Part shown: piece after piece, positions 13,992 through 45,117 of the stretch | Numbering within the stretch: the stretch's first letter is position 1 | Layout of the letters: each line of letters begins with the position of its first letter | Source of the DNA: Ichthyenterobacterium magnum | GTDB taxonomy: Bacteria > Bacteroidota > Bacteroidia > Flavobacteriales > Flavobacteriaceae | Reading direction: 5' to 3' | Assembly: GCF_003610635.1 (NCBI RefSeq) | Contig: NZ_RAQJ01000001.1 | Location: 1,054,474 to 1,118,473 of the forward strand | Length of the DNA: 64,000 nt | Made by a program: the position numbers and the translations under genes | Notes under the pieces: generated by a model | Told to the model about the DNA's origin: nothing | Seen by the model: the letters and a program-made list of their open reading frames with translations, nothing else | Databases searched by the model: none

Positions 13992-15335
13992 ATGAATTGG
14001 GAACAATTACTCTCATTAAAACGTTTTGGAGATACACATAAACGTTTAAGAAAGGAACAAGATGAAACTCGTTTGGGTTTTGAAGTAGATTATGATCGTG
14101 TTATATTTTCTTCTGAATTTAGAAGTCTTCAAGATAAAACTCAAGTGATACCATTATCACAAACAGATTTTGTTCACACAAGATTGACGCATAGTTTAGA
14201 AGTAAGCGTTGTAGGTCGTACTTTGGGGCGACGAGTTGGCCAAAAACTATTAGAAAAGTATCCGCATTTAAAAGATACTTACGGTTATCAAGTAAATGAT
14301 TTTGGTGCTATTGTAGCTGCTTCTGCATTGGCACACGATATTGGAAATCCACCATTTGGGCATAGTGGAGAAAAAGCTATAGGCGAGTTTTTTAAAACAG
14401 GAAACGGAAAAAGATTTAAAGACCAATTAACTGATAAAGAATATCAAGATTTATGTGATTTTGAAGGAAATGCAAATGGTTTTAAAATTTTAACCGAGAG
14501 CAGAGAAGGTAGAGAAGGTGGTTTACGATTAAGTTACGCTACGCTTGGCGCTTTTATGAAATACCCTAAAGAATCATTACCCAAAAAACCTACAAATCAT
14601 ATTGCAGATAAGAAATATGGTTTTTTTCAAAGTGAAAAACAAGCGTTTATTGATGTTGCTGAAGAATTAGGATTGCTAAAACGTGGTGAAGGTAAAGATT
14701 TGAGTTACTCAAGACATCCTTTGGCTTATTTGGTTGAAGCAGCTGATGATATTTGTTATACGATTATAGATTTTGAAGATGGAATTAATTTAGGATTAAT
14801 TCAAGAAGAGTATGCGTTAGAATATCTTATAAATCTTGTGAGAGACTCAATTAATACAGAAAAATACCATTCACTTAAAAATACTCAAGATAGAGTTAGT
14901 TACTTAAGAGCATTAGCCATTAATACACTTATCAATGAGGCTGTAGATTTATTTATGACACATGAAGAAGCTATCTTAAATGGCACATTTTCAAAAGCGT
15001 TATTAGACAATAGTAAATATGAAGCTCAAATTAAAGATATTATTAAAGTAAGTATTGAGAACGTCTATCAATCTGCTGAGGTTATAGATAAAGAAATTGC
15101 AGGTTATGAAGTCATTAATAAACTTCTAAACACCTTTACTTCTGCTATTTGTAATCATTTTTCAGGAAATGCTTTAAATTATGATAAACTAATTTTAAAA
15201 TCATTACCAAAAAATATAAATATCAACCAAGAAAGTTTATATGATAGTTTGGCTTTGGTTTGTTTTTATATATCAAAGTTATCAGATAGTAATGCAATTC
15301 TTGCATACAGAAAATTAAAAGGGAATCATTTATAG
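13992..15335 (+). CDS. dgt: dGTP triphosphohydrolase-like HD protein
   Basis: Hydrolyses dNTPs, classically dGTP to deoxyguanosine and triphosphate, in the cytosol. The 447 residues carry the full HD set: His67 in RLTHSLEV, His115-Asp116 in LAHDIGNPPFGHSGE and the later Asp in EAADDICYTIID. The N-terminal block SSEFRSLQDKTQVIPLSQTDFVHTR is typical of Dgt. Members of this group in Bacteroidota can be broad dNTPases, so the exact substrate is not certain. The gene is divergent from the TonB receptor gene; a weak -7 element (TATCTTGC) lies near 13965. Confidence 0.92.
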   Translation: MNWEQLLSLKRFGDTHKRLRKEQDETRLGFEVDYDRVIFSSEFRSLQDKTQVIPLSQTDFVHTRLTHSLEVSVVGRTLGRRVGQKLLEKYPHLKDTYGYQVNDFGAIVAASALAHDIGNPPFGHSGEKAIGEFFKTGNGKRFKDQLTDKEYQDLCDFEGNANGFKILTESREGREGGLRLSYATLGAFMKYPKESLPKKPTNHIADKKYGFFQSEKQAFIDVAEELGLLKRGEGKDLSYSRHPLAYLVEAADDICYTIIDFEDGINLGLIQEEYALEYLINLVRDSINTEKYHSLKNTQDRVSYLRALAINTLINEAVDLFMTHEEAILNGTFSKALLDNSKYEAQIKDIIKVSIENVYQSAEVIDKEIAGYEVINKLLNTFTSAICNHFSGNALNYDKLILKSLPKNININQESLYDSLALVCFYISKLSDSNAILAYRKLKGNHL

Positions 15336-22389: not shown

Positions 22390-25300
22390 TTAAATACTTC
22401 TTGAGGGATTTACTTCTTTTGTATTAGAAACTCGGTCTTTGTATAGCCACATTTTAAATTTAGTAACTAAATAGAATAGAATTGGCACAACAATTAGTGT
22501 TAAGAATGTTGCTATTAATAAACCGTAAATAACGGTCCATGCTAGTGGTCCCCAAAAAATAACATTATCTCCTCCCATATATATATGAGGATTGAACTCA
22601 CTAAATAGAGTAAAGAAGTTTATGTTTAATCCTGTTGCTAAAGGGATCAGTCCTAAAATGGTTGTAATTGCAGTTAACAAAACAGGTCGTAAACGCGCTT
22701 TTCCTCCTTTTATAATGGCATCTAATAAATCTTCATTAGCTAAATAAGTTTTTTCATCTAAATCATGTTCTACTTTTTTTCTATCAATAAGTAATTGCGT
22801 GTAATCTAATAATACTACACCATTATTAACAACAATACCAGCCAGTGAGATAATCCCCATCATAGTCATCATGATAACAAACGAACTACCAGTTGCTACA
22901 ATACCACCAAATACACCTATTAAACTCAAGAAAATAGCCAGCATAATAATTCCTGGTTTTGAAACAGAATTAAATTGGAATATTAAAATGAAGAAAATTA
23001 AACCTAAACCTGTAAAGAAAGCTCCCATTAAAAAAGCCATCTGTTTATTTTGTTCTTCAATCTGACCTGTATAATCAATTTTAACTGTGTCAGGTTTTTC
23101 GGTAAAAGATTGCATCTCATTTTGTATCTGTGATACAATAACTCCAGCATCTGTAAAACCTGGTGCTAATGCAGAGTACAGCGTTACTACACGTTTTACA
23201 TCTTTATGTTTTATAGCACTAAACCCCGAGTTATTGTTGTGTTTAGCAACTGCAGAAACAGGGATTTCTTTTATTTGGCCAGAAGCCATATCTCTAAATG
23301 TGATTTTCTGATTAAAAATAGCACTGGTGTTGTATCTGTTTTCTTCATTAAAACGTACATAAATATCATAATCTTCACCATCTTCTTTATAAATGCCTGC
23401 TTTTGCTCCAAAGATAGCGTTGCGTAATTGCTGCCCTACTTGTCCTGCATTAACACCTAATTCTCCAGATTTTTTTCTATCAACTAACACTTGCATTGTG
23501 GGCTTGGATTTGTTGACGTCAATTTTTAACTCATCTATACCTTGAATGTTTTTGGAGTTGATAAAATCGCGCATACTTTCAGCAGTTGCGATTAACTCAG
23601 AATAGTTATTCCCTTCTAATTCTACGTTAATTGGGTAACCAGCTGGCGGACCAACAGCATCTTTTTCTACAGAAATAGCTACACCTGGATAAATGTCTTT
23701 AAGTGACTCTTGTACTTTTTTAAGTAGCTCTTGACTATCTGCACCTTCTCTAAATTTATATTCACGCATGGTTGCAGTAATCTTTCCTCTATGTGGCATT
23801 TCTGCAGCAGAACCACCATCTGTTTGGGGGTTTCCTGCGCCTTCACCAACTTGGGATACAGCACTTTCTGTTAAAAAGTTAAACTCTCCATGTTTATAAG
23901 CTTCTTGATTTATGATATCGTAAAAACGTGTTTCAATTTCTTTAGTAATAGCGTTTGTTTTTTTAATATCTGTTCCTTCAGGATACTCAATGTATGCAAT
24001 AATTTGATTAGGTGTATTGTCTGGAAAAAACTCCACTTTTGTTCTTTGGCTTCCTACTGAAGCACCAAAACCAATAAAAGCAATAAATAATAAAACAAAA
24101 GTTCCAATGGTAATAAATATTGGCTTTCTACCTCCTAAAGCTGCTCGTAGTGTTTTTTCATAAAAACGCTCCCAACGTGGTAAGATTTTGTTTTGAAAAC
24201 CATTAGCCCATTTTCTCAACCATAATCTATAAATCCAAAGCATGATTGCTGTAAAAACCATTAATGTTCCTAAACCTTTATATGCACCACCAAAAATGAA
24301 AATTAGCACACCAATAATTGCAACAATTATAGATGTTTTAATAATTTGTTTTAACGGCATATTTTTATCTTCAGTTGTCATAAACTGCGATACTAATACA
24401 GAGTTAAAGAAGATAGCAACAAATAAAGAAGACCCTAAAACTACTGATAATGTAATTGGGAAATAAATCATGAATTGCCCCATCATTCCAGGCCATAACC
24501 CTAAAGGAACAAAAGCTGCCACTGTAGTTGCTGTTGATATAATAATAGGAAAGGCAATTTCTCCAATTCCTTTTTTAGCAGCCTCAATACGGCTCATGCC
24601 TTCATCATCCATTAATCGATACACATTTTCAACCACTACAATACCATTATCTACAAGCATACCTAGACCCATAATTAGCCCAAACAAAATCATGGTATTC
24701 ATGGTATAGCCTAACATGTTTAATATCATAAGAGACATAAACATGGACATTGGTATGGCAAACCCAACAAATAAGGCGTTTTTAAAGCCTAAAAAGAACA
24801 TTAAAACGGTTACTACGAGTATAATCCCAAAGATGATGTTGTTTACCAAATCGTCTACTTGCCCAATGGTTTTTGAAGACTGGTCGTTAGAAATGGTAAC
24901 TTTTAAATCTTGAGGGAAAACATTTTCGATAGCGTTATCTACAATAACTTGAATTTGGTCTGCTGCAGCGACCATGTTTTTTCCAGAACGTTTTTTTACA
25001 TCTAGCATCACCACTGGTGCCCCAAACTCTCTAGCGTAAGTGGTTTTGTCTTCGTCTTTAAAGGTTACTGTTGCAATATCTTTTAAATAAATAGGGTTAT
25101 TGTTTTCAGATTTTACAACAAAACTTTCTAATTCATTTGGCGTATCAATTTCTCCTATAACACGAATGGTACGGCGTTGCCCGCTTGTAATTAAATTACC
25201 GGCAGACATGGTCATGTTTTCTTTGCTAATGGTATTGATGACATCATCAAAACTCACTTGAGCTGCCATCATTTTATAAATATCGACTGCAACTTCTACT

Positions 25301-25893
25301 TCTTTTTCTTGAGCACCACGAATATCAACTTGCTTTATTTCCTGTAAGCTTTCAATTTCATCTTCAAGATATTCACCATATTCTTTTAACTTGTCTACTG
25401 GGTAATCTCCAGAGATATTAATATTGAGAATTGGGATTTCTTCAGACATACTCAAATCAAACACATTTGGTTCTACTTTTGCATTGTTGAATGTTGGCCA
25501 ATCTTCACTTGAAGTTTCAGAGTCTACCTCGTCTTTTACTTTTTGTTTTGCAGCTTCAACAGAAATGTGTTCATCAAACTCTACAATTACGATGGAATAA
25601 TCTTCTTGTGACGTTGAGGTGATTTCTACAACATTACTTACCGTTTTTAAGCGATCTTCAATAGGATCGGTAATTAGTTTCTCAATGTCTTCTGCTGTAT
25701 TTCCTGGATAGACAGAGCTAATATAAATTTTGGTTTCTTTTATTTCTGGAAAGTTTTCTCTAGGCATACTAAAATATGCTGAGGTACCAAGAAATAATAG
25801 CAGGGCAATTAAAACATACATTGTTGTTTTATTGTTGATTGCCCATGATGATAATCCAAACTCCTTATTTACTTTTTTATTTTTATCAGTCAT
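22390..25893 (-). CDS. RND efflux permease (AcrB-like family)
   Basis: A 1167-residue inner-membrane pump, probably proton driven, exporting drugs or other small molecules. It has the twin RND repeats: TM1 near 18-38, a periplasmic porter region, TM2-6 at about 340-500 with LVDNGIVVVENVYRLMDDEG (the TM4 proton-relay helix, with one Asp where AcrB has two), and the second half ending in the TM10-12 block with SLAGIVVNNGVVLLDY. It is about 120 residues longer than AcrB because of a loop around 500-580. It is the last gene of the TetR-TolC-adaptor-permease unit, but separated from the adaptor by an inserted four-helix-bundle cassette that ends directly before this ATG. Confidence 0.93.
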   Translation of the reverse strand: MTDKNKKVNKEFGLSSWAINNKTTMYVLIALLLFLGTSAYFSMPRENFPEIKETKIYISSVYPGNTAEDIEKLITDPIEDRLKTVSNVVEITSTSQEDYSIVIVEFDEHISVEAAKQKVKDEVDSETSSEDWPTFNNAKVEPNVFDLSMSEEIPILNINISGDYPVDKLKEYGEYLEDEIESLQEIKQVDIRGAQEKEVEVAVDIYKMMAAQVSFDDVINTISKENMTMSAGNLITSGQRRTIRVIGEIDTPNELESFVVKSENNNPIYLKDIATVTFKDEDKTTYAREFGAPVVMLDVKKRSGKNMVAAADQIQVIVDNAIENVFPQDLKVTISNDQSSKTIGQVDDLVNNIIFGIILVVTVLMFFLGFKNALFVGFAIPMSMFMSLMILNMLGYTMNTMILFGLIMGLGMLVDNGIVVVENVYRLMDDEGMSRIEAAKKGIGEIAFPIIISTATTVAAFVPLGLWPGMMGQFMIYFPITLSVVLGSSLFVAIFFNSVLVSQFMTTEDKNMPLKQIIKTSIIVAIIGVLIFIFGGAYKGLGTLMVFTAIMLWIYRLWLRKWANGFQNKILPRWERFYEKTLRAALGGRKPIFITIGTFVLLFIAFIGFGASVGSQRTKVEFFPDNTPNQIIAYIEYPEGTDIKKTNAITKEIETRFYDIINQEAYKHGEFNFLTESAVSQVGEGAGNPQTDGGSAAEMPHRGKITATMREYKFREGADSQELLKKVQESLKDIYPGVAISVEKDAVGPPAGYPINVELEGNNYSELIATAESMRDFINSKNIQGIDELKIDVNKSKPTMQVLVDRKKSGELGVNAGQVGQQLRNAIFGAKAGIYKEDGEDYDIYVRFNEENRYNTSAIFNQKITFRDMASGQIKEIPVSAVAKHNNNSGFSAIKHKDVKRVVTLYSALAPGFTDAGVIVSQIQNEMQSFTEKPDTVKIDYTGQIEEQNKQMAFLMGAFFTGLGLIFFILIFQFNSVSKPGIIMLAIFLSLIGVFGGIVATGSSFVIMMTMMGIISLAGIVVNNGVVLLDYTQLLIDRKKVEHDLDEKTYLANEDLLDAIIKGGKARLRPVLLTAITTILGLIPLATGLNINFFTLFSEFNPHIYMGGDNVIFWGPLAWTVIYGLLIATFLTLIVVPILFYLVTKFKMWLYKDRVSNTKEVNPSRSI

Positions 25894-26332
25894 TAGTTAT
25901 TAGTCTTTAGTCGTTAGTGTTTTTGTCATTAGACTTTAGGTATTTTTGAAGACCTGATGTCATTTTTGACAATTCTTCAAGTTGTAACCTATTGTTGTAA
26001 TCATCATCTTCACTTAGATAATTTAACCTTTTAGCAATAGTTGAGCAGACAACACATTCTTTTATGGAGCCATTGGAAATATTCAAAAACCTATTGAATT
26101 GGGCATTGGTGTCTCCTGAACCTTCTGCAATATTCAACGCAATAGAAACTGATGCTCTTTTAAATTGAGAACTTAAGGCATAATCTTCATTTTTAGGAAA
26201 ATTATTTGTTGCCTTATATGTGAGGTCAATAAAATCTAATGCTTTTTGATATACTTTTAAATCTTCGAAGCTGAATTTAATCTCTTTCATAAATTTTAAT
26301 ATTTTTTTCTACAGACTAATGTCTAATAACTA
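25894..26332. mobile_element. Four-helix-bundle cassette A with terminal inverted repeats
   Basis: Ends: TAGTTATTAGTCTTTAGTC at 25894-25912 and the reverse complement of TAGTTATTAGACATTAGTC at 26314-26332, 17 of 19 positions matching. The cassette fills exactly the space between the adaptor gene, whose TAG stop is its first codon, and the permease ATG, and carries one gene. The same arrangement exists at 43637-44069. That it is mobile is inference from the repeats and the two unrelated host operons. Confidence 0.55.
25907..26290 (-). CDS. Four-helix-bundle protein (S23/IVS family), cassette A
   Basis: A 127-residue all-helical protein. FEDLKVYQKALDF near the start and YALSSQFKRASVSIALNIAEGSG in the middle are the signature of the family first seen as ORFs in intervening sequences of 23S rRNA genes, and related to the Avd accessory protein of diversity-generating retroelements. 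Here it is neither in an rRNA gene nor next to a reverse transcriptase. It lies between two efflux genes that are normally adjacent, so it does not look like part of the pump. It matches the protein at 43650-44024 at roughly two thirds of positions by eye. Molecular role unknown; nucleic-acid binding is known for Avd. Confidence 0.9.
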   Translation of the reverse strand: MKEIKFSFEDLKVYQKALDFIDLTYKATNNFPKNEDYALSSQFKRASVSIALNIAEGSGDTNAQFNRFLNISNGSIKECVVCSTIAKRLNYLSEDDDYNNRLQLEELSKMTSGLQKYLKSNDKNTND

Positions 26333-27496
26333 TTCACTTATCAGGATTTTAACTTCTTGACCGTCTTTAACACTACGCGCCCCTTCTTTAATAATCTCAT
26401 CGCCATTTTTTAAGCCCGAAAGCACTTCTATATCATCGCCTTGTGTTTTACCAGTGGTAATAATAACACGTTTGGCTTTTGCTTTGTTATCAGTTTTATC
26501 TGTTATAGTATAAACATACTGTTCGCCTTTAGCGTTTTCTGAAATAATACTTTGCGGAATTAGAATGGCATTGTCGTTTGTGTAATCGTTTATTTTAAGT
26601 TTAGCAGTAAGGTTAGGCTTAATTGTGTTGTCTTTGTTTGGTACTGCAACTTCTACTTTAAAAGTTCTATTTGCAGGATTTATAAAATTACCAGCTTGAC
26701 GGATTTTTCCGTTCATAGATTTACCAAGAATGGGAAACTCTACTTGTACATTTTTACCTGGAGTAACATTTGTAATGTAACGTTCAGGCACATCCGTTTC
26801 AATATACATGTCTTTTAAATTTACAATTCTGAACAATTGCGATTGTCCTGGAGCAACAACACTTCCTTGGTCTGTAATTACATCATCAATAGTTCCTGTA
26901 AAAGGAGCGCGAACTATGGTTTTACCAACTTGTTGTTGCAATTGATTGACTGCTTTTTGTTGTGCTTCATAATTAGATTTTGCTTGAAGGTATTGAATTT
27001 CACTACCAATTTTTTGATTCCATAAACGCTCTTGTCGTTCAAATGTAGTTTTTGCCAAATCGGCTTGAATTTGTAATTGAGCTACTTGCTGACTTAAACC
27101 GCCATCATCTATTTTGGCCAATATTTGTCCTTTTTTTACTTTTTGACCTTCTTTAACATAAACGCGAGTTAAAATTCCAGAATACTCAGGGAAAATTACT
27201 AAATTTTGTTTTGTGCTAACATTTCCTTGAAGCTCTACATAATGGTTAAAAACAGATGCTTTGGCATCAAAAGTTGTGATTAAAGGCACTCTTTCTTGTG
27301 GGTCGAGCTCTTTAATTTTAGCGTCAAGTTGCTTAAGTTGAGCTGCAATAGCTTGTTGCTCGCCATCCAATTGTGTTTTGCGCTTTCTAATTTGTTCTAA
27401 ATTATTTGTGTCTAAAATATCTTCTACAGATTGCTCTTTGTTTCCACAAGAAGCTAAAAGAAGTGCTATTATTGTTATTGATATTATATGTTTCAT
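26330..27496 (-). CDS. Periplasmic adaptor subunit of RND efflux pump
   Basis: A 388-residue membrane-fusion lipoprotein (lipobox Cys17, LLLASC) linking the RND permease to TolC. A coiled-coil at about 30-65 (LEQIRKRKTQLDGEQQAIAAQLKQLDAKIKELD) lies before the lipoyl half-motifs (GILTRVYVKEGQKVKKGQILAKID and GTIDDVITDQGSVVAPG) that flank a helical hairpin; a beta-barrel and membrane-proximal domain follow. Its TAG stop codon is the first codon of cassette A, so the insertion may have set its C-terminus (KILISE). Gap of 33 bp from the TolC gene. Confidence 0.93.
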   Translation of the reverse strand: MKHIISITIIALLLASCGNKEQSVEDILDTNNLEQIRKRKTQLDGEQQAIAAQLKQLDAKIKELDPQERVPLITTFDAKASVFNHYVELQGNVSTKQNLVIFPEYSGILTRVYVKEGQKVKKGQILAKIDDGGLSQQVAQLQIQADLAKTTFERQERLWNQKIGSEIQYLQAKSNYEAQQKAVNQLQQQVGKTIVRAPFTGTIDDVITDQGSVVAPGQSQLFRIVNLKDMYIETDVPERYITNVTPGKNVQVEFPILGKSMNGKIRQAGNFINPANRTFKVEVAVPNKDNTIKPNLTAKLKINDYTNDNAILIPQSIISENAKGEQYVYTITDKTDNKAKAKRVIITTGKTQGDDIEVLSGLKNGDEIIKEGARSVKDGQEVKILISE

Positions 27497-27529: not shown

Positions 27530-28855
27530 TTAGTTGTCTTGAGTTTTATTAAGTACAGTTTCTAACTCTGCTTTTTTATTGATGACGTCAAGCATGGCTT
27601 GTAAAAATTCTTGTTGTGAGCTGTATAACTGTGTTTGTGCTTGGCGCAATTCAAAACTAGAGGCAATACCTTCAAAAAATTTGGTTTGGTTTTTTTTCTC
27701 AATGCGTTCTGCTAAGTTTAAGTTTTGTTTTTTATTGTCATAATCTTCAATTGCAAACTTATAGTCGCTTTTTGCAGAGGCGATTTGTAATTTTAGTTTT
27801 TGCTCAGTTTCGGTTAAATCATCTTTAGATTTTTCTAGATTTATACGGGCACGTTGTGTAGCAGCACTTCGCATACCTGAACTGAATAACGGAATTTTTA
27901 AACTAACCCCAAAAGCAGATGTTCCTGCCCAAGGTTGATTGTTATTTGCAAAAGTAAACGACTCACTATTGCCTATATAGCTGCCATTTAAAAAAGCATT
28001 TAGCGTCGGCAAGGCTTTACTTTTTTCAAGCTTTACTAAAAGTTCTTTAGATTTTTTGTCGTTTTCTGCAATTCTGTAATCAATGTTATTTTCAATATTG
28101 TCTTCTTTATTTAATATATCTAGACTCATGTTTTTTATAGCAAGAGTTTCTAAAGTATCGGTTAAAGAACTAGGCGAGTTTAAATCTAAACCAATAGTAA
28201 TGTTAAACATTTGGTAAGCTAAATCTTTTAAACGTGTTGTATTACTTAAATTACTCTCTACGCCAGATAAAGTAATTTGAAGCTGTTCAACACTTTCTTC
28301 TTCTTCTAAACCATTTTCATATATTTTTGTAGTTTCGTTTAGATTTTTTTGTAGAACATCAATATTGCGTTGTAATATTTTAATACTTTCTTGAGCTAAT
28401 AGTACATTGCCATAAGCATTGATGACTGCTTTTCTAACTTCTAAATCTGTTTTTTCTTTAGCGTTTTTTGAGATTTCTAAAAAGACTTTTGCTGATTGTA
28501 AGCCAACTAAATAGGAGCCATCAAATATTTTTTGATTAAGCGAAGCTGCTGCAGTCATATTCTGTTTCGCTCCAAAATCGATAATACCATCATTATTAAA
28601 ATCGATACCATCAAATTGTTGTTTTAGATTGTTGATATAATCTACAGAAGCACTAATTTGTGGTAAACCAGTTGCTGTCGTTTCCCATTTTTGTTTTTTG
28701 GCGGCCTCAATATCGCGAGCAGCATTTTTTGATGTTCTATTATTTTCTAAAGCAAAATCTATGGCTTCTTGAAGCGTAAAACTTTTTGTATCTTTCTGAG
28801 AAAACGCTAGAGAAGCGATTAATAAACTTGTTAATAGTATGAGCGTATGTCTCAT
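27530..28855 (-). CDS. TolC-family outer membrane efflux protein
   Basis: A 441-residue outer membrane channel: signal peptide with cleavage near residue 19 (LAFSQ), then the two OEP repeats with long helices (LQEAIDFALENNRTSKNAARDIEAAKKQKWETTATGLPQISA and the second half with RARINLEKSKDDLTETEQKLKLQIASAKSDYKFAIEDYD). It provides the exit duct for the adaptor and RND permease encoded downstream. It starts 3 bp after the TetR gene, showing a common transcript. Confidence 0.92.
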   Translation of the reverse strand: MRHTLILLTSLLIASLAFSQKDTKSFTLQEAIDFALENNRTSKNAARDIEAAKKQKWETTATGLPQISASVDYINNLKQQFDGIDFNNDGIIDFGAKQNMTAAASLNQKIFDGSYLVGLQSAKVFLEISKNAKEKTDLEVRKAVINAYGNVLLAQESIKILQRNIDVLQKNLNETTKIYENGLEEEESVEQLQITLSGVESNLSNTTRLKDLAYQMFNITIGLDLNSPSSLTDTLETLAIKNMSLDILNKEDNIENNIDYRIAENDKKSKELLVKLEKSKALPTLNAFLNGSYIGNSESFTFANNNQPWAGTSAFGVSLKIPLFSSGMRSAATQRARINLEKSKDDLTETEQKLKLQIASAKSDYKFAIEDYDNKKQNLNLAERIEKKNQTKFFEGIASSFELRQAQTQLYSSQQEFLQAMLDVINKKAELETVLNKTQDN

Positions 28856-43636: not shown

Positions 43637-44069
43637 TAGTCTGTAGTTTTTAGTGGTTAGTTTTTGTTTTAAGATATTTTTGAAGACTAGTTATCATTTT
43701 TGATAATTCTACCAGTTTTTTCCTTAAATCATTATTAGTTTCAGAAGTAATAAAACCTTGCCTTTGGGCAATGGTTGAGCAAACCACACATTCATTTAAA
43801 GAATCTAAAGCCATTTGTAAAAATCTATTGAATTGCTTATCAGTATCAGATGAGCCTTCTGCAATATTTAATGCGATAGAAACTGCTGCTCTTGTAAATT
43901 GAGATGAAAGGGCATAACGTTCTGTTTTTGGGAAATTGTCACAAGTTTTGTATGCTAAATCAACAAAGTCTAAAGCTTTATTATAGACTTTTAAATCTTC
44001 AAATTTGAATTTAGTTTCTTTCATAACTTTTAATTTTCTACAAGGCTAATCTCTATAGACTAAAGACTA
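43637..44069. mobile_element. Four-helix-bundle cassette B with terminal inverted repeats
   Basis: Ends: TAGTCTGTAGTT at 43637-43648 and the reverse complement of TAGTCTTTAGTC at 44058-44069 (10 of 12 match). As in cassette A, the first TAG is the stop codon of the upstream gene (the ATPase) and the last CTA abuts the start of the downstream gene. It is 433 bp against 439 bp for A, with the same gene and orientation. Confidence 0.5.
43650..44024 (-). CDS. Four-helix-bundle protein (S23/IVS family), cassette B
   Basis: A 124-residue paralogue of the protein at 25907-26290, sharing KFEDLKVY, YALSSQF-RA-VSIALNIAEGS and ECVVCSTIA. It lies between the ATPase and first permease of a metal ABC operon, genes that are normally directly adjacent, so it is an insertion into the operon, not a transporter part. 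No rRNA or reverse transcriptase is near. Divergence between A and B shows that they are not a very recent copy of each other. Function unknown. Confidence 0.9.
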   Translation of the reverse strand: MKETKFKFEDLKVYNKALDFVDLAYKTCDNFPKTERYALSSQFTRAAVSIALNIAEGSSDTDKQFNRFLQMALDSLNECVVCSTIAQRQGFITSETNNDLRKKLVELSKMITSLQKYLKTKTNH

Positions 44070-44840
44070 TTCCTGTATACTTACTTTATAATTAATTCCG
44101 TAGGTTTTAGTTAAATTATCATCATTAAAAATATCTTTTACAGGTCCAGTTGCAATTTTCTTCACATTCAAGAACGTTACCCAATCAAAATATTCTGGAA
44201 CAGTTTGCAAATCATGATGCACTACAATAACCGTTTTTCTTGCTTTTCGTAATTCTTTTAAAATATTAATAATTGCAATTTCTGTTGTGGCATCTACACC
44301 TTGAAAAGGTTCGTCCATAAAATAAATTGATGCGTTTTGAACCAATGCTCTTGCTAAGAAAATACGTTGTTGCTGCCCGCCAGACAACTGACTTATTTGC
44401 CTGTTTTTAAAAGGAAGCATCCCAACTTTTTCAAGTGCTTCTAGAGCTGCTTTCTTTTCTTTTTGACGTGGTCGTTTTATCCAACCTAAACTACCATAAG
44501 TTCCCATCATAACAACATCTAATGCTGTTGTTGGAAAATCCCAATCGACACTTCCTTTTTGAGGTACATATGCCACAAGTGAACGTTGTTTTTTATATGA
44601 TTTACCATAGATACTTACACTACCAGCTATTGGTTTTAAAATGCCGAGAATAGATTTAATAAGTGTTGATTTTCCTGCGCCATTTGGCCCAACAATAGCC
44701 ATTAAAACACCTTCGGGAATTTCTAAATCAATATCCCAAAGTACAGGTTTGTAATTGTATGCAACGGTTAAATCGTCTACTTGAACAGCAATATTTCCTG
44801 CGGAGGCAGGAATCTTATTTTTGTTTGTTTGTTCCTTCAT
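44067..44840 (-). CDS. Metal ABC transporter ATP-binding protein
   Basis: About 257 residues, the ATPase of the Mn/Zn/Fe importer: Walker A in [13 protein letters not shown], the Q-loop in [13 protein letters not shown], signature LSGGQQQR, Walker B in IYFMDEP, and the His switch in VVHHD. The frame is open up to 44921, but the N-terminal region is built from repeat DNA (the REP-like palindrome at 44794-44813 encodes KIPASAG), so I prefer the ATG at 44840. Conserved sequence begins at [19 protein letters not shown]. Its TAG stop is the first codon of cassette B. Confidence 0.9.
44794..44813. repeat. REP-like palindrome inside the ATPase coding start
   Basis: TTTCCTGC (44794-44801) and GCAGGAAT (44806-44813) form a nearly perfect stem around a GGAG loop. 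The core matches the repeat at 3368-3388. It is translated in frame as part of the N-terminal extension of the ATPase. Confidence 0.55.
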
Positions 44841-45117
44841 AATTTTATTTCTATTCATTTTGTCTTGATACAAAACGAACCAAAAAATCATATCAAAATT
44901 AGGAAATTGCAATAGCACCATTTGCTTTCAAGATACCGTGCTTGAAGCTATGCTTTGCATCTTTATCTCTTCGCTCGTTATTTCTGAATTTTGACTTCTC
45001 TGACCTTGCCAGAATTTCAAGTTCAATTTATATTTTTTGTTTTCATTAGTGTTTTTAAACTAACTAATGTTTTATCAATTCGTATAAAACAGCAAACTGT
45101 AACTGAATACTATAGAC
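44841..45117. other. Repeat-like spacer between the ATPase and solute-binding protein genes
   Basis: No gene is supported. The part from about 44860 to 45025 has words unlike the rest of the window and contains a stem-loop, GCTTTCAAG (44924-44932) / CTTGAAGC (44941-44948). On the minus strand a startless frame of about 40 codons (RSEKSKFRNNERRDKDAKHS) crosses it. It looks like a dispersed repeat, which cannot be confirmed from one copy. Confidence 0.35.

Follow-up and report, generated by a model that had tools for sequence, protein, structure and literature searches.

An S23-family gene with heptad-repeat arms at an efflux-operon joint of Ichthyenterobacterium magnum, and its likeness to the ORF-bearing intervening sequences of 23S rRNA

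What is a gene of the S23 family, known from insertions in 23S rRNA, doing between two protein genes of an efflux operon? In the window analysed here (64,000 nt of Ichthyenterobacterium magnum contig NZ_RAQJ01000001.1), the operon runs on the minus strand from an outer-membrane efflux protein of the OEP/TolC type (27530-28855), the first efflux-operon gene shown, through an RND adaptor of the HlyD/CusB type (26330-27496) to an RND permease (ACR_tran; 22390-25893), all three recognised by Pfam. The initial annotation, made from the letters alone, had placed a four-helix-bundle gene precisely at the adaptor/permease joint, and profile searches bear this out: the gene at 25907-26290, on the same strand as both host genes, encodes 127 aa matching PF05635 at 109.7 bits (cut-off 33.8) and TIGR02436 (S23, 23S-IVP) at 102.2 bits (cut-off 24). 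The related small four-helix-bundle protein Avd of diversity-generating retroelements is matched weakly and below cut-off (Avd model, 26.6 bits against 80; bAvd, PF22296, 23.5 bits against 40), and, unlike the setting of Avd, the genome yields no match to a reverse transcriptase (RVT_1). With dN/dS of 0.03-0.07, similar to that of the permease, the encoded protein is under strong purifying selection and, on that evidence, functional.

The gene is framed by two arms on the minus strand, each with a 19-nt core (5' copy 26314-26332; 3' copy 25895-25913). That these cores form an inverted repeat matching at 17 of 19 positions had been proposed at the outset and was confirmed on re-reading the sequence; none of 1000 dinucleotide-preserving shuffles of both flanks reached 17, the best giving 15. 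The proposed edges were likewise found as described: in the direction of transcription the cassette starts with the adaptor TAG (26332-26330) and ends at 25894, abutting the permease ATG. In a repeat search the arms reach 33 nt (25885-25917 and 26309-26341, 79% complementary). Each arm is a 7-nt periodic array: the 5' array (26309-26343, p=0.003) covers the last adaptor codons and provides their stop, whilst the 3' array (25885-25918, p=0.001) starts at the end of the gene, crosses the permease ATG and reaches into the opening permease codons. The arms of this copy are short; both folds predicted for the transcript, MFE and centroid, pair them (z=-3.33, every shuffle being less stable), and the predicted arm duplex at this RND joint is weak, with a mean of -8.4 kcal/mol, no stronger than that of swapped arms (n=3). 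Gene and arms together support the view of the insert as a cassette. Three features do not figure in the initial annotation: the 7- or 8-nt period, a G/C asymmetry between the arms, and an architecture identical to that of the ORF-bearing intervening sequences (IVSs) of 23S rRNA.

Across 195 unique intact copies of PF05635 genes, it is this architecture that is shared, and not the sequence, the arm word varying by locus. At least one arm holds a significant 7- or 8-nt array in 86% of them, in keeping with the expectation that other family members would bear end repeats, and where both arms are significant the period is equal in 92 of 96 copies (64 at 7 nt, 28 at 8 nt); in all such tests of arms and periods, related sequences are taken as they are, uncorrected for phylogeny. 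Over about 1 Mb of flanking sequence, arrays of 7 or 8 nt are 42-fold denser within 200 nt of PF05635 genes than elsewhere, and the enrichment is almost confined to these two lengths, windows with periods of 5, 6 or 9-12 being rare or absent. Matches within 5' arms reach 0.46, 0.43 and 0.40 at lags of 7, 14 and 21 against a baseline near 0.29, a pattern missing from control gaps. Composition is equally polarised: among 88 copies, 5' arms contain 21% G and 9% C, and 3' arms 9% G and 20% C (skews of +0.40 and -0.39), with no skew in 29 ordinary co-directional gaps (-0.04).

Pairing between the arms outlasts changes in their sequence. Judged against mismatched arms taken from other copies, the control relied on here, the arms of a single copy form predicted RNA duplexes with a median of -21.4 kcal/mol as opposed to -10.6 kcal/mol. 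At the best-sampled joint, in fatty-acid oxidation operons, the word has changed several times among 29 orthologues with arm pairing kept (own arms -20.1, swapped arms -14.1; 0 of 20000 permutations, p<5e-5), and only here is co-variation significant, small joints of 3-8 copies giving no signal. Period, in turn, follows the protein: pairs of proteins at 60-70% identity share it in 95% of cases and those at 40-50% in 57%, with 58% expected by chance, kinship being uncorrected. Pairs at different joints still agree in 91% of cases at 60-70% identity, and where the nearest neighbour lies below 60% identity its period is still the right guess in 87% of cases, the base rate being 70%, again with kinship uncorrected. 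Word similarity has mostly decayed in pairs that keep the period; repeat length is therefore more conserved than repeat sequence. Because the word varies between loci, the TTAGTC-rich repeats first proposed as the mark of the element cannot serve as its signature, and are local to the cassette A family (that of the efflux joint) and to a second copy in the window, cassette B.

Cassette B is a PF05635 gene (43650-44024, minus strand) between a znuC-like ABC ATPase (44067-44921) and its permease, and its protein is 65% identical to that of cassette A. Its 5' arm holds a periodic segment of TTAGTC words at 44053-44069 (p=0.014) and its 3' arm another at 43637-43661 (p=0.022), both on the minus strand. 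The I. magnum genome as a whole (3.0 Mb, 16 contigs) carries six PF05635 genes, all six at co-directional joints, which we take from recognition of the sequences, except where Pfam was run, to be folE/cysS, hemD/hemE, thiolase/acyl-CoA dehydrogenase, adaptor/permease, znuC-like ATPase/permease and dihydropyrimidinase/C-N hydrolase. Flanking repeats are visible at most of these joints, and the repeated word is specific to each, TTAGTC being common to the adaptor/permease and ABC joints only. The sixth protein (L006, G000:C2:119945-120256) is very divergent, sitting on the longest branch of the tree, and neither of its arms shows significant periodicity. Elsewhere in the genome, a solo TTAGTC array resembling a 3' arm abuts a ksgA-like start codon where no PF05635 gene is present (L008:1480-1525, G000:C1 near 731486), and is likely a cassette scar.

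PF05635 genes are widespread, occurring in 112 of 149 sampled flavobacterial genera with up to 16 copies per genome, and they are strongly concentrated where the initial annotation supposed, at intercistronic joints: both neighbours are co-directional in 118 of the 122 distinct flavobacterial copies with readable context, as compared with 32% of window genes, and in 172 of the 195 copies overall. Empty orthologous sites, which had been suggested as a check, proved common. Among the best 30 orthologues of the efflux joint, 26 are empty and 4 occupied (the window's own included, and that of G121 decayed); in 80 named genomes the joint is filled in 7 (L152; L156, Hyunsoonleella pacifica; L160; L186; L195, Flagellimonas beolgyonensis; L202, Aestuariivivens insulae; L214, Wocania ichthyoenteri) and has only a short gap in 73. 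Filled and empty species coexist in Hyunsoonleella, Flagellimonas and Aestuariivivens. The copies of L186 and L202 are of a different subfamily, one whose closest kin, at identities of up to about 73%, lie at tolC/adaptor and other joints; the efflux joint has therefore been occupied independently. One efflux operon (L120 and L065, genome G138) holds two cassettes of different subfamilies, at its tolC/adaptor and adaptor/permease joints.

Emptiness at this joint need not mean that the site was never filled. Significant 7-nt periodicity is found at 16 of 72 'empty' efflux joints where about 1.7 would be expected, and many retain a piece resembling a 3' arm; in four Flagellimonas (L201, L205, L209, L218) a conserved adaptor/permease gap of 42-46 nt has its match in the 3' arm of L195, where the joint is filled. 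Such remnants indicate that absence is often loss, the 3' arm perhaps surviving the gene because it had joined the downstream leader. Most clades, moreover, follow a joint, which points to a predominance of vertical descent with loss: copies are mostly inherited by joint, have sometimes jumped between joints on an evolutionary time scale, and are often lost. A recent landing at the RND joint is accordingly not supported. The cassette there looks old and is held by purifying selection, with inheritance as the main route and loss on repeated occasions; the case for recent insertion is weakened both by the 3'-arm scars in many 'empty' relatives and by host-like divergence in most pairs. The pair with Wocania is an exception to that host-like divergence.

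The same anatomy recurs far beyond the Flavobacteria. Skew and period are seen again in a phylum-wide sample of Bacteroidota, a copy in Gemmatirosa (Gemmatimonadota) has the same heptad arms, and on cyanobacterial plasmids PF05635 genes lie between cas6 and cas4, between cas10 and cmr3, and between ribonucleotide reductase genes, most of them between arms of clean heptamers (GGGAGTA / TCCCTAC, for example). Two plasmid copies, in Nostoc (L290) and Calothrix (L291), lie antisense between two operon genes, so that expression by read-through is not universal; even in L290, with its antisense orientation relative to the host operon, the arm 5' of the PF05635 gene is the G-rich one. Most telling is a copy on Azospirillum lipoferum 4B plasmid p2 (L304; NC_016586.1, about 14401-14730), which sits inside a plasmid-borne 23S rRNA gene, as judged by an LSU model match across the locus. 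It is a typical ORF-bearing IVS. Both arms are heptad arrays (p=0.002 each), predicted to form a duplex with 31 consecutive pairs at -62 kcal/mol, and their position within 23S rRNA decisively places the architecture described here with the IVS type.

IVSs interrupt 23S rRNA genes at helix 9, 25 or 45 and are excised from the transcript by RNase III, the fragments remaining unligated, and ORF-bearing forms are known in Leptospira and Coxiella. The window copy has in common with them complementary termini (the repeat and predicted stem described above), a PF05635 ORF in the loop and the sense orientation of that S23/IVP ORF. In Coxiella the ORF is likewise in the sense direction, GACAGAT heptamers lie just 5' of it and an RNase III processing site falls at the first heptamer repeat (PMC4990558); the purine-rich heptad 5' arm is another point of likeness (GACAGAT in Coxiella, PMC4990558; GAGGACG-type in L304). 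In its anatomy the window cassette agrees with an ORF-bearing IVS on all points that can be tested but one, its location, since it lies not in a 23S rRNA gene but between two protein genes. The wider class differs from IVSs in the same way, with mRNA as host, many subfamilies and joints per genome, and excision as a prediction.

Taken together, these observations make it reasonably probable, in our judgement, that the window holds an intervening-sequence-like cassette residing in mRNA instead of rRNA, which is transcribed by read-through, paired into a stem by its arms and cut by RNase III. Read-through from the host operon would transcribe the cassette, and the arms are modelled to pair as a long-range stem in the mRNA around the ORF. 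By analogy with 23S intervening sequences, RNase III would then cut that stem. Just as rRNA tolerates fragmentation, so the host mRNA would tolerate a cut that divides it between its cistrons without disrupting it, which would make joints the tolerated sites. More speculatively, a pentameric protein may bind the arms through their 7/8-nt register: cassette A protein matches PDB 2gsc (E=2.5e-16), a homologue structure with five chains, and the title of the structure paper, as cited in PMC3936711, names five four-helix bundles.

One must consider whether the same facts could be explained by a conventional DNA element, whose inverted arms would be terminal repeats read by a transposase or by the four-helix-bundle protein, and whose insertion would prefer joints. 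Inverted ends are what such an element would have, and there is evidence of movement: sister members of a subfamily occupy different joints; two 85%-identical copies in one genome share their arm words although their joints are unrelated, and their homology stops at the flanking stop and start codons; and in the cassette shared with Wocania, which coincides with the block of high identity, dS is 0.45 as against about 1.2 in both flanking genes, a single case that suggests horizontal exchange at the same joint. A transposase acting in trans, however, would need arm sequence to be kept from copy to copy, which it is not; instead of the conserved terminal repeats of insertion sequences and MITEs, only period, skew and complementarity are common to them. 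Nor is a target-site duplication apparent, the closest filled/empty pairs differing by about 8-16% in flanking DNA; no transposase is encoded within the cassette, and a resident enzyme, whether reverse transcriptase or Y1/RAYT transposase, was rejected as the agent of mobilisation in trans, the genome having neither (no match to Y1_Tnp). With most copies also clustering by joint, a DNA element of this kind seems quite unlikely. Two Calothrix plasmid copies considered as a possible jump proved to lie on a stretch of plasmid that both have in common, gene order included.

Purifying selection, joint-specific orthologues such as the 29 in fatty-acid oxidation, a period that tracks the protein and a homologue with five chains would all suit a resident autoregulatory gene, in which a TRAP-like RNA-binding protein uses the flanking repeats as its own regulatory sites, is inherited vertically and serves its host. 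Against this, 125 copies are spread over 57 unrelated joints, the settings of the family extend to operons for cas, conjugation and ribonucleotide reductase as well as to 23S rRNA, the gene is frequently absent or lost, and different subfamilies occur at the same joint; we consider this explanation unlikely. As for the arrays themselves, they might be incidental microsatellites without function, lengthened by a slipping polymerase wherever the spacer tolerated it; slippage of heptamers in bacteria has been suggested before (PMC4692102), and in one pair of loci (L251 and L253) arrays do differ by whole units between close species. Slippage alone leads one to expect neither a 42-fold enrichment beside one family nor equal periods, opposite G/C skew and pairing between arms, and is very improbable as a full account.

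The preferred reading, a cassette akin to the 23S IVSs, invites a bolder extension that we put forward tentatively and think rather doubtful as a whole: that PF05635 proteins bind nucleic acid and recognise their own genes by the 7/8-nt spacing, and not the letters, of the arrays around them, one word per protomer of the pentamer; that, of the heptamer arrays still unexplained in Cyanobacteria, Xanthomonas and Bacteroidota, many are their living or decayed footprints; and that ORF-bearing 23S IVSs are a minor branch of the whole. Were spacing read instead of letters, arms could drift in sequence and still keep pairing and period. A repeat length that is conserved while its sequence drifts, and that is tied to protein clade, makes the function of S23/IVP proteins directly testable. 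In the open-licence part of PMC, no paper was found that describes PF05635 cassettes with period-matched arms in protein operons, or that links repeats to PF05635 outside 23S rRNA. On the reading preferred here, ORF-bearing intervening sequences would no longer be just a rare curiosity of rRNA, for their reach would take in a class of cassettes widespread among mRNA operons.

Earlier reports take on a different aspect in this light. PF05635 genes found with cas4 and cas6, and between cmr2 and cmr3, were read as having a CRISPR-associated function (PMC3936711); such joints are seen here too (L293, L296, L299), but their arms and context suggest inserted cassettes, and the presence of PF05635 in cas or other functional clusters need not imply a shared function. 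Heptameric simple repeats (GGGAATC, GGGGATT) have been described in Xanthomonas and Nostoc, many as convergent pairs, without explanation and at 70-75 convergent pairs per Xanthomonas genome (PMC4692102), and TAACTGA heptamer arrays have been reported elsewhere (PMC4679880). Both resemble the present arms as intergenic 7-nt arrays of variable copy number, and both differ in having been reported without a tie to PF05635 genes (PMC4692102, PMC4679880). The cassettes may explain these long-puzzling 7-letter repeats of bacterial genomes, and offer a testable origin for intergenic heptamers reported for years without one; the link between array and cassette is established for cyanobacterial plasmids, and is extended to the remainder by inference. 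In a few copies (L019, L096, L104, L260, L262), some arms hold their word in forward and reversed orientation alike, an arrangement that looks like a stem-loop without a gene lodged inside the arm, and these resemble the convergent pairs of Xanthomonas.
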